Position numbers and translations under genes: made by a program
NCBI GenBank assembly: GCA_016000195.1
Contig: JAECRO010000003.1
Span: 1-64,000 of the forward strand
Reading direction: 5' to 3'
From: Burkholderiales bacterium
GTDB lineage: Bacteria; Pseudomonadota; Gammaproteobacteria; Burkholderiales; Burkholderiaceae_C
Length of the DNA stretch: 64,000 bases
Notes under the pieces: model-generated
The model's input: the letters and a program-made list of their open reading frames with translations, nothing else
What the model was told of the DNA's origin: nothing
Databases searched by the model: none
Part shown: positions 7,513-25,801 of the stretch, in pieces
How positions within the stretch are numbered: position 1 is the stretch's first letter
How the letters are laid out: each line of letters opens with the position of its first letter

Positions 7513-7889
7513 ATCCGCTGACCTCCGTTTCCCTTGGGGAAACATTAGCTGGTTAAAGCTGGTTAATTAACCTTCCGCAACACGGCTGAACCGATTAGCG
7601 GATGCGACTGTGGCAAGGAAGGACCTTCAGAAACAGCTGGGATTGTGCCACCTTACGGCTGAAACACAAAGACCCTTGCTATCTTTTTGAATCACACTTT
7701 CAAATTTTCATATGTTTTTAAAGCCTGCATGATTGAAGACAGTTTTTCAGCAATTGATGCTTCAAGCGTGGGAAGTTGTCAGCGTCGAGCTGACTTTTGC
7801 ATGCTATGCATCTGTTGGCGCATCAGCCTATGGGCAAAAGCGGCTCAGAAAACCCGTGCAGTTCCATGCATCGAAAGGCTGCTCAAGAA

Positions 7890-21223: not shown

Positions 21224-22762
21224 TTACCCCTGCGCGGCAACCCGGTCAGCTTTACTTTGCAGTTTATTCAGCGCACTCAGGTAGGCCTTGGCCGAGGCGA
21301 CCACAATATCGGGATCAGACCCTACGCCATTGACCACACGTCCGCTGTTTTGCAGGCGCACCGTCACTTCGCCCTGGCTTTCAGTCGAGCCGCTGATGGC
21401 ATTGACTGAATAAAGCACCATTTCCGCACCACTCTTGACGTGGGTCTCAATCGCCTTGAGCGACGCATCCACCGGGCCATTGCCGTCTGACTCGCCTTTA
21501 ACCTCTGTGCCCGCCACCGTGAAAATCACGCATGCCTGGGGACGCTCTCCGGTTTCGCTGTGCTGCGACAGGGAGACAAAGCCATATTGCTCGTTGCTAT
21601 GGGTGACGCTCTCATCGCTGACCAGAGCAAGAATGTCCTCGTCGAAAATGTCGCTTTTGCGGTCCGCAAGGTCTTTGAACTTGATGAAGGCGTTGTTGAT
21701 GTCGGTTTCACTTTCCATCGCCACGCCCAGCTCCTGCAGGCGCTGCTTGAAGGCATTGCGGCCGCTCAGCTTGCCGAGCACAATTTTATTGGCCGACCAG
21801 CCCACATCTTCGGCCCGCATGATCTCGTAGGTATCACGCGCCTTCAGGACGCCGTCCTGGTGAATGCCCGAGGCATGGGCAAAGGCGTTGGCGCCCACCA
21901 CGGCCTTGTTGGGCTGCACCACAAAACCTGTCGTCTGGCTCACCAGGCGACTCGCGGCCAGTATCTGCCGGGTGTCGATGCCCATGTCGAGTCCGAAATA
22001 ATCCTTGCGCGTTTTCACGGCCATGACCACCTCCTCCAGCGAGCAATTGCCTGCGCGTTCACCCAGGCCGTTGATGGTGCATTCCACCTGCCGGGCACCG
22101 CCGATCTTCACGCCAGCGAGCGAATTGGCAACCGCCATGCCCAGGTCGTTATGGCAATGAACCGACCAGACCGCCTTGTCGCTGTTGGGAATGCGCTCGC
22201 GCAGGTTTTTGATGAAGTTGCCGTAGAGCTCGGGAATCGCATAACCCACGGTGTCGGGAACATTGATGGTGGTGGCGCCTTCATTAATGACCGCCTCGAT
22301 GACACGGCACAAAAAATCCGGGTCGGAGCGATAACCGTCTTCGGGGCTGAATTCGATATCAGACATCAGGTTGCGCGCGAAGCGCACTGAAAGCCTGGCC
22401 TGCTCAAATACCTGGTCGGGCGTCATGCGGAGTTTTTTCTCCATGTGCAGCGCACTGGTGGCCAGAAAGAGGTGCAAACGCCCCGAGTTGGCCGGCTTCA
22501 ATGCTTCTGCGGCACGCGAAATATCGCGGTCGTTGGCGCGCGCCAGCGAACAGATGGTGGACTCCTTGATGATCTCGGCAATGGCCTTGACACATTCAAA
22601 ATCGCCGTTCGAGCTGGCTGCAAAACCGGCCTCAATAACATCGACCCTCAGACGCTCCAGCTGGCGGGCAATGCGAAGTTTTTCGTCGCGGGTCATGGAC
22701 GCACCAGGTGACTGCTCGCCATCGCGCAAGGTGGTGTCGAAAATAATGAGTTTGTCGGTCAT
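21224..22762 (-). CDS. leuA: 2-isopropylmalate synthase
   Basis: [38 protein letters not shown]. Confidence 0.97.
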
Positions 22763-22892
22763 GGGAAATTTCTCGGTTTTGAAGAGGTTGGCTCAGCGCT
22801 GCAAAAGCGCAGCAGAGGAAAGACGAATATCAGGACGCAGGCTCAGGCAAATTTCAATTTCATATAGTTTTCCAAAAATAAAAACCGGCAAC

Positions 22893-22970
22893 CAAAAAAA
22901 ACGGCCCGTTGCTGGTGCAAACGGGCCGTTGAATGAGGTGTACGCGTGCGCTACCGTCTCGGCCCGTTGG
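22893..22970 (-). promoter_or_regulatory. predicted leucine attenuator of leuA (terminator plus competing antiterminator segment)
   Basis: minus strand: CCAACGGGCCG (inside leader ORF) ... AACGGCCCGTT-TGCACCAGC-AACGGGCCGTTTTTTTT; segment 1 and the last arm are both complementary to the middle arm. Confidence 0.8.
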
Positions 22971-23004
22971 CAGATAGCAGTAGCGCTAGCGATATTTTTT
23001 TCAT
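22951..23004 (-). CDS. predicted leuA leader peptide MKKISLALLLSANGPRR
   Basis: 17-codon ORF with Leu codons CTA GCG CTA CTG CTA, 19 nt downstream of pssA and immediately upstream of the attenuator hairpins. Confidence 0.75.
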   Translation of the reverse strand: MKKISLALLLSANGPRR

Positions 23005-23023
23005 CGAATCAATGTACCACAAT

Positions 23024-23836
23024 TTATTTGTGCAACCCACGCTCATCCGGCTCATCGGTAGAGGTCGAAATAACGCTGGTCTGCTGGCCCTTGGCCTTGC
23101 GCCAGCCATACAGCACATAGCCCGAAAGTCCATAAACCACAAACAGGCCAAAGATAACGGTAGGCGGATCGATATTGATGACAGCAATGCCGAGTGCAAT
23201 CAATACGATGACAACAAACGGAACACTGCGCTTCATCTGGACATCCTTGAAGCTGTAAAAAGGCACGTTGGTAACCATCGTCAGCCCGGCATATAGCATC
23301 AGGCCAAAAGTCATCCAGCGCACTTCCAGCCCCTCAAAGCCCAGGTCGTTCATCAACCAGATAAAGCCAGCCACCAAAGCAGCTGCGGCAGGCGAAGGCA
23401 AACCCTGGAAAAAGCGCTTGTCAACCACGGCGGTATTGACATTGAAACGCGCCAGACGCAATGCAGCGCAAGCACAATAGACAAACGCGCCAATCCAGCC
23501 CCAGCGGCCCAGGCTGGTCAAAGCCCAGACATAGGCAATCAAGGCAGGCGCTGCGCCAAACGACACCATGTCGGACAGTGAATCCATCTGCTCGCCAAAA
23601 GCGCTCTGGGTATTGGTCAGGCGGGCAACCCGGCCATCCAGGCTGTCGAGCACCATGGCGCAAAAAACGCCGATTGCCGCTTGGTCAAACCGTCCATTCA
23701 TGGCCATCACGATGGCATAAAACCCGCCAAACAAAGCGGCCAGCGTGAACAGGTTAGGCAAGATGTAAATGCCTTTGCGCCGCTTGCGCGGCACGCGCTC
23801 TGCGCCTGTTGCCAGATTATCCTCGCCATCATGCAT
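23024..23836 (-). CDS. pssA: CDP-diacylglycerol--serine O-phosphatidyltransferase
   Basis: IYILPNLFTLAALFGGFYAIV; DSLDGRVARLTNTQSAFGEQMDSLSDMVSFG. Confidence 0.95.
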   Translation of the reverse strand: MHDGEDNLATGAERVPRKRRKGIYILPNLFTLAALFGGFYAIVMAMNGRFDQAAIGVFCAMVLDSLDGRVARLTNTQSAFGEQMDSLSDMVSFGAAPALIAYVWALTSLGRWGWIGAFVYCACAALRLARFNVNTAVVDKRFFQGLPSPAAAALVAGFIWLMNDLGFEGLEVRWMTFGLMLYAGLTMVTNVPFYSFKDVQMKRSVPFVVIVLIALGIAVINIDPPTVIFGLFVVYGLSGYVLYGWRKAKGQQTSVISTSTDEPDERGLHK

Positions 23837-25655: not shown

Positions 25656-25801
25656 ATAGATAGATTCCTCTTTTCGCTGCCCTCCCCTGCGCACGGTAAC
25701 GCGCAGGCTCGGCAGTCAATAGATTCGTCAGTTGACGGGGTGTTTCAATCCGCGCCCAAGCACAGCTTGAGCGAACTTGGAAAAGTAAAAAAGCAGCGCG
25801 C

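Follow-up and report, generated by a model that had tools for sequence, protein, structure and literature searches.

A predicted leucine attenuator with a putatively leaderless leader ORF upstream of leuA in Burkholderiales

The window, i.e., the whole 64,000-nt stretch of Burkholderiales DNA analyzed here, carries a gene cluster whose protein sequences lead us to take it as ilvB-ilvH-ilvC-pssA-leuA. Between pssA, which ends at 23024, and leuA lies a short Leu-rich ORF followed by a terminator. The question is whether this segment senses leucine and governs leuA or belongs to the end of the preceding operon. Judging by conservation, sequence and predicted folding, the leuA leader is predicted with high confidence to be a leucine-sensing, ribosome-mediated transcription attenuator, and stalled ribosomes very probably switch leuA on under leucine shortage. 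Promoter use, leaderless translation, stalling and the leucine response are the parts of this scheme that we infer.

Elements of the leader in the window

The following elements were assigned, each given with its basis.

23011..23022, minus strand: putative extended -10 promoter TTGTGGTACATT with the hexamer TACATT at 23016-23011 and without a conserved -35 element (89 aligned loci).
23004..22951, minus strand: leader ORF leuL of 17 codons and a stop, encoding MKKISLALLLSANGPRR (read directly: ATG AAA AAA ATA TCG CTA GCG CTA CTG CTA TCT GCC AAC GGG CCG AGA CGG TAG).
22975..22989, minus strand: putative regulatory codons CTA GCG CTA CTG CTA (Leu conservation at codons 8-10 and CTA excess).
22978..22986, minus strand: segment 1, the 5' arm GCGCTACTG of a predicted sequestering hairpin, within the Leu codons (MFE fold, partial covariation, synonymous recodings).
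22960..22968, minus strand: segment 2, the putative antiterminator strand AACGGGCCG, inside the ORF and in the loop of the sequestering hairpin (GGG codon and CGGGC spacing).
22948..22956, minus strand: 3' arm CGGTAGCGC of the sequestering hairpin, with its UAG stop paired to a CUA Leu codon (TAG-stop excess).
22920..22930, minus strand: segment 3, the middle arm AACGGCCCGTT, which would form the antiterminator with segment 2 or the terminator with segment 4.
22894..22910, minus strand: segment 4, which with segment 3 forms the intrinsic terminator; the distal arm AACGGGCCGTT lies at 22910-22900 and the T8 run at 22901-22894, both read directly (compensatory changes).
21224..22762, minus strand: leuA, 2-isopropylmalate synthase, the putative regulated gene, start at 22762 (ORF; relatives 83-95% identical).

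The original prediction had described a leader ORF with four Leu codons in five, three of them CTA, and its position and sequence proved exact. The middle arm, the distal arm and the T8 run are likewise present where they had been claimed. CTA, supposed to be rare in this genome, makes up 2 of the 176 Leu codons in five neighbouring CDSs, the window having 60% GC. Three RNA segments had been proposed; four are predicted here, the addition being a hairpin between the Leu codons and the region of the stop codon. The extended -10 promoter and the leaderless start predicted below had no place in the original prediction.

According to the proposed mechanism, transcription would begin at the extended -10 promoter between pssA and leuA, with the 5' end at the leader ATG or within a few nucleotides of it, and ribosomes would load on the leaderless start. 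When charged Leu-tRNA is scarce, chiefly the CUA-reading isoacceptor, the ribosome would stall in LALLL and break up the sequestering hairpin, leaving AACGGGC free to pair with GCCCGTT. This pairing would block the terminator, and leuA would be transcribed. With plentiful leucine, a ribosome at the UAG would cover AACGGGC, the terminator would form and the polymerase would be released after some 110 nt of transcription. Termination would likewise be favoured on RNA that no ribosome has entered, through the sequestering hairpin.

The RNA comprising leader and terminator folds with -49.7 kcal/mol, which is below all 200 dinucleotide shuffles (z -4.4). The combination of an extended -10, a close ATG, a short ORF and a terminator occurs at a single site on both strands of the 64 kb, the leuA leader. 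Scans for plain -10/-35 promoters and for terminators reported neither the promoter nor the terminator of the leader, the former because no -35 is present and the latter because of the hairpin criteria applied. The structured scan returned no comparable leader in the region upstream of ilvB in the window. Two Rfam motifs scored above their gathering cutoffs elsewhere in the window, the ilvH RNA motif before ilvH (25662-25729, minus strand) and the SucA RNA motif (7516-7607, minus strand).

Conservation, promoter and predicted start

A set of 89 distinct homologous leaders directly before type-1 or type-2 2-isopropylmalate synthase genes of Burkholderiales was obtained from the regions upstream of leuA homologues in named genomes and in genomes of the same genus. 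A locus counted in the scan if a TAnAnT hexamer, with TG among the five bases ahead of it, was followed by an ATG and if a Leu cluster and a terminator were there as well. The presence of these features is built into the set, while the spacing, flanking bases, codon choice and remaining peptide were left free; the 89 loci share descent, and counts over them are therefore not independent. The leader ORF, whose lack of conservation in relatives had been set as one refuting outcome, is conserved at 89 distinct loci. Typical leaders have 16-18 codons and read M(K/N)xISLALLL followed by -SANGRRR, -SPHGRRR, -APHGRDV or -LSPNGRSW, and the distant versions from Methylibium and Piscinibacter terminate in LGVPRAR. 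The leuA relatives in named genomes that are 83-95% identical to the window gene, the nearest being those of Polaromonas, mostly have the same leader in front.

The covariance model R1, built from 38 leader sequences, matched 261 of the 301 genomes of the window's family at E<=0.1. In a sample of the order, 26 of 300 genomes matched, 9 from the window's own family and 17 from outside; about 13 of these 17 look like terminators matched by chance, the weak ones mostly resembling bare terminators. A LeuA-type gene adjoins the leader in every match of at least 40 bits that was inspected. Three genomes of another family (f10) have R1 matches, with leaders such as MDTRKDSLLLALLLFVPYGRR before type-2 LeuA; for MDTRKDSLLLALLLFVPYGRR and a relative, located before type-2 leuA at loci L148 and L150, shared ancestry, transfer or convergence may be the source. 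A 557-bp contig (G583:C197, L145) bears a leuA start 96% identical to that of the window in a genome placed in another family, and this match is possibly contamination.

The surroundings of the leader differ among relatives. In several Polaromonas and Variovorax genomes it lies about 1.9 kb ahead of leuA; loci with this distance are L003, L002, L012, L016, L019-L021 and others. At L003, from Polaromonas sp. JS666, a type-2 LeuA is found between the leader and a type-1 leuA, which puts two tandem synthase genes behind one attenuator. The leader is absent upstream of leuA at L022, where leuA is close behind pssA, and at L050, where a short spacer separates the two; the leader is therefore dispensable in some relatives.

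Alignment of the upstream regions on the hexamer gave the consensus TTGTGnTACATT (89 loci). Among the features that the scan did not impose are TTG at -17 to -15 in 55-83 of the 89 loci and C as the third base of the hexamer; no information was found at -30 to -36, where a -35 element would be expected. The gap between hexamer and ATG is 6 nt in 44 loci, the window included, and 7 nt in 36 (together 80 of 89), and it is never below 6 nt in a scan that allowed 3-15. Transcription from sigma-70 promoters starts about 7 nt downstream of the hexamer, and a gap of 6-7 nt would thus place the start on or beside the A of the ATG. Shine-Dalgarno motifs (GGAG, GAGG, AGGA) occur in the SD window of 0 of 89 leaders vs. 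88% of leuA starts, with median anti-SD pairing energies of -2.1 and -6.6 kcal/mol, respectively. Because of the tight gap between -10 and ATG, the lack of a -35 and the lack of an SD, the leuL ORF is predicted to be leaderless, its ATG lying at +1 or directly beside it.

The pattern TGTGNTANANT-N5-9-ATG occurs at two sites of the 3.09-Mb genome, the leuA leader and a leader ahead of aroG, while the reversed-pattern control gave two chance matches there; in the related genome G024 it again finds these two leaders, with zero matches for the control. A looser pattern, TGNTANANT with 6 or 7 nt before ATG, gave ten genome sites vs. five for the reversed control, and only at the leuA and aroG leaders is it followed by a short ORF and then a terminator. 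ORFs of 71-426 aa with an equally tight -10-to-ATG gap were noted at G000:C48:70699, C8:50489, C26:4861 and C78:62584, and these four are candidates for ordinary leaderless genes.

The same segment could be read as the terminator of the upstream ilvBHC-pssA operon combined with a constitutive leuA promoter, the Leu-rich ORF being incidental. The terminator stands directly behind pssA and the promoter at the pssA 3' end, as such a reading expects, but the promoter is conserved upstream of the terminator, which leuA transcripts starting there must cross. The ORF frame, the CTA codons and the spacing are conserved as well, and at L046, where the upstream gene is ilvC instead of pssA, the leader still precedes leuA. 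This explanation appears very improbable. Less remote, though still unlikely, is a leucine attenuator with a leadered ORF, in which RNA starting further upstream, by readthrough from the ilv genes or from another promoter, would be translated by reinitiation after pssA. The leader ATG is only about 20 nt past the pssA stop in the window genome, and readthrough of the operon is plausible. Against it, the spacing from the pssA stop to the leader varies widely among relatives while the -10-to-ATG gap is tight, no leader of the 89 has an SD motif, and the same promoter-ATG unit stands at aroG, where no ilv operon adjoins it. A leaderless attenuator is the reading followed below.

Leader codons and folding of the switch

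Codon choice in the leaders departs strongly from that of the genes behind them. CTA accounts for 217 of 401 Leu codons in the leaders (54%) vs. 19 of 4156 in the leuA genes (0.46%). In the 17-codon leaders, codons 8, 9 and 10 are Leu in 54/54, 52/54 and 53/54 cases, the presence of a Leu cluster in all 89 loci being a search criterion. Codon 14 is GGG in 52 of the 54, GGG making up 9.6% of Gly codons in leuA, and of the 36 Arg codons at position 16, 35 are AGA (1.2% of leuA Arg codons). TAG serves as the stop in 74 of 89 leaders vs. 50 of 300 long ORFs at the same loci. As read from these sequences, the GGG, AGA and TAG constraints sit at the codon level and are unexplained by amino-acid selection. 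The residues ahead of codon 6 are variable; together with the fixed GGG, AGA and TAG, this is the pattern that selection on the RNA strand and the Leu codons, rather than on the peptide, would leave. An additional action in trans, by the peptide or by the short RNA after its release, was also considered, Sinorhizobium rnTrpL/peTrpL being a precedent (PMC7298713), but apart from the Leu run and the codons constrained by the RNA, peptide residues vary freely, and we hold such an action to be very doubtful. In the ten stretches of the window's genome examined, there is one tRNA-Leu(UAG) among five Leu tRNA genes.

The distances in the leader are nearly fixed. In 72 of 87 loci, the start of the CGGGC core precedes the stop by exactly 13 nt; in 62 of 87, the last Leu codon begins 11 nt before the antiterminator core. 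With these distances, a ribosome in the Leu run would leave segment 2 free and a ribosome at the stop would cover it. The original prediction placed the antiterminator strand inside the ORF, where a strand complementary to the middle arm does lie, but the long perfect match CCAACGGGCCG is specific to the window genome, relatives having AACGGGCGGAG. The antiterminator helix ACGGGC:GCCCGU is nearly invariant in the family, with about 6-7 bp, and reaches 9 bp in the window genome.

Covariation, proposed earlier as a test of the segments, gave a divided result. The terminator shows compensatory changes (CG to AU in 15 and GC to AU in 8 of 38 sequences), but the antiterminator core hardly varies, and covariation therefore cannot prove it. 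In the predicted sequestering hairpin, the stop region is the partner of the Leu codons (GCGCUACUG:CGGUAGCGC in the window), the UAG stop lying opposite a CUA codon. Its pair 49:74 changes from GC to AU in 8 sequences, and positions 43:83 do not pair in 27 of 38. A column alignment understates this hairpin because leaders of the CTACTGCTA and CTACTACTG kinds pair in different registers, and for this reason a test against synonymous recodings was added. With family codon usage kept, 85% of 86 leaders fold better than their recodings, at a mean z of only -0.8. It is concluded with moderate confidence that the sequestering hairpin holds the antiterminator strand as long as the RNA is free of ribosomes.

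Three states were folded for 87 loci, using the RNA up to segment 3 with the ribosome as a mask. Without a ribosome, the median probability of pairing between segments 2 and 3 is 0.03. It rises to a mean of 0.94-0.96 with the ribosome at the second- to fourth-last Leu codon and is 0.46 with the ribosome at the last one; the value of 0 with the ribosome at the stop is forced by the mask and is no independent prediction. In these models, no ribosome or a fast ribosome would mean termination and a stalled ribosome would mean readthrough. The logic first proposed, with stalling giving the antiterminator and arrival at the stop the terminator, is supported by the conserved ORF, the richness in CTA and Leu, the fixed geometry and the masked folding.

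Known systems and a second switch ahead of aroG

No family of Rfam 15 matches the leuA leader. The Leu_leader family RF00512 gave no match up to E 5 within 22760-23060 with the Rfam covariance models; the best leader-type match over the leader was Thr_leader at 19 bits vs. a 55-bit cutoff, and the Rfam matches there are chance only. The ilvH RNA motif (RF02993; 25729-25662) belongs to the same branched-chain gene cluster but is another motif at another gene, outside the switch. The enteric leuL of Salmonella and E. coli is alike in its short Leu-rich ORF, rare CUA codons, antiterminator and terminator hairpins and downstream leucine genes. At the level of overall layout, it differs in that the window leader has an RNA of only about 110 nt, an antiterminator strand within the ORF and a predicted leaderless start lacking an SD. 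As PMC1183508 relates of Carter et al. 1986, changing three CUA codons to CUG in the Salmonella leu leader lowered its sensitivity. One theory holds that the codon chosen by an attenuator is that with the tRNA whose charging is most sensitive to starvation (PMC1183508), and the CUA choice in the leader fits this.

Leaderless leaders have precedents. The rnTrpL RNA of Sinorhizobium meliloti begins with the ATG of a 14-aa leaderless trpL ORF (PMC7298713); it is leaderless as predicted here, but belongs to Alphaproteobacteria and senses Trp. In Streptomyces lividans, leuL1 and leuL2 are Leu-rich leaderless ORFs of 12-15 aa upstream of leuA and leuS; unlike the window leader, leuL1 (leuA) is without a typical intrinsic terminator (PMC8079986). 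Actinobacterial leuA is also associated with the pseudoknot LEU element, in which codon mutations misfit classical attenuation (PMC1262725). The Leu codons of this element pair with the leuA SD, while in the predicted fold of the window leader they pair with the leader stop region. A search of the open-access literature gave no paper on leucine attenuation or on leaderless leaders in Comamonadaceae; the main earlier survey of proteobacterial attenuators, that of Vitreschak et al. 2004, may contain a mention. Leucine attenuation, CUA use and leaderless leaders are each already known; their combination with an in-ORF antiterminator strand matches no Rfam family.

Elsewhere in the window's genome, R1 matched only once, in front of an AroG-type DAHP synthase.

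G000:C20:12405-12555 (L112, L165): putative aroG leader rich in Phe, Tyr and Trp; also at L166-L194 and L164.

All 30 of the aroG loci fetched from the genus share the layout of the leuA leader, namely TGTGCTACATT or a near version, then after 6-7 nt the ATG of a leader such as MTSAKFYFGYFWFSSASGGRETFA, and finally a CCGCCGG/CCGGCGG terminator. The leader of the window genome departs from this frame downstream of the aromatic codons and stops early (MNSATFSFAYFWTLKRRRR). In another genus, aroG is likewise preceded by such a leader (L164), and the aroG leader at L166 had no Rfam match. In most aroG leaders, 21-22 nt separate the antiterminator strand from the stop, and at this distance simple ribosome masking does not account for termination there. 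It seems somewhat probable that the attenuators of Comamonadaceae and relatives follow an architecture of their own in two pathways or more, leucine at leuA and aromatics at aroG among them, in which an extended -10 is fused to a leaderless ORF bearing the antiterminator strand.

If so, a promoter, a start codon, sensor codons and half of a switch would be packed into about 75 bp, and the promoter-ATG signature alone would find exactly the leuA and aroG switches in the window's genome. The design suggests that leaderless initiation serves where the ribosome must load onto the RNA almost immediately. The leader would add a sequence-supported leucine attenuator, missing from Rfam 15, for a large betaproteobacterial family, with a CUA choice common to the enteric leader and the window family, and the conserved signature may offer a route to further short leader ORFs overlooked by annotation.
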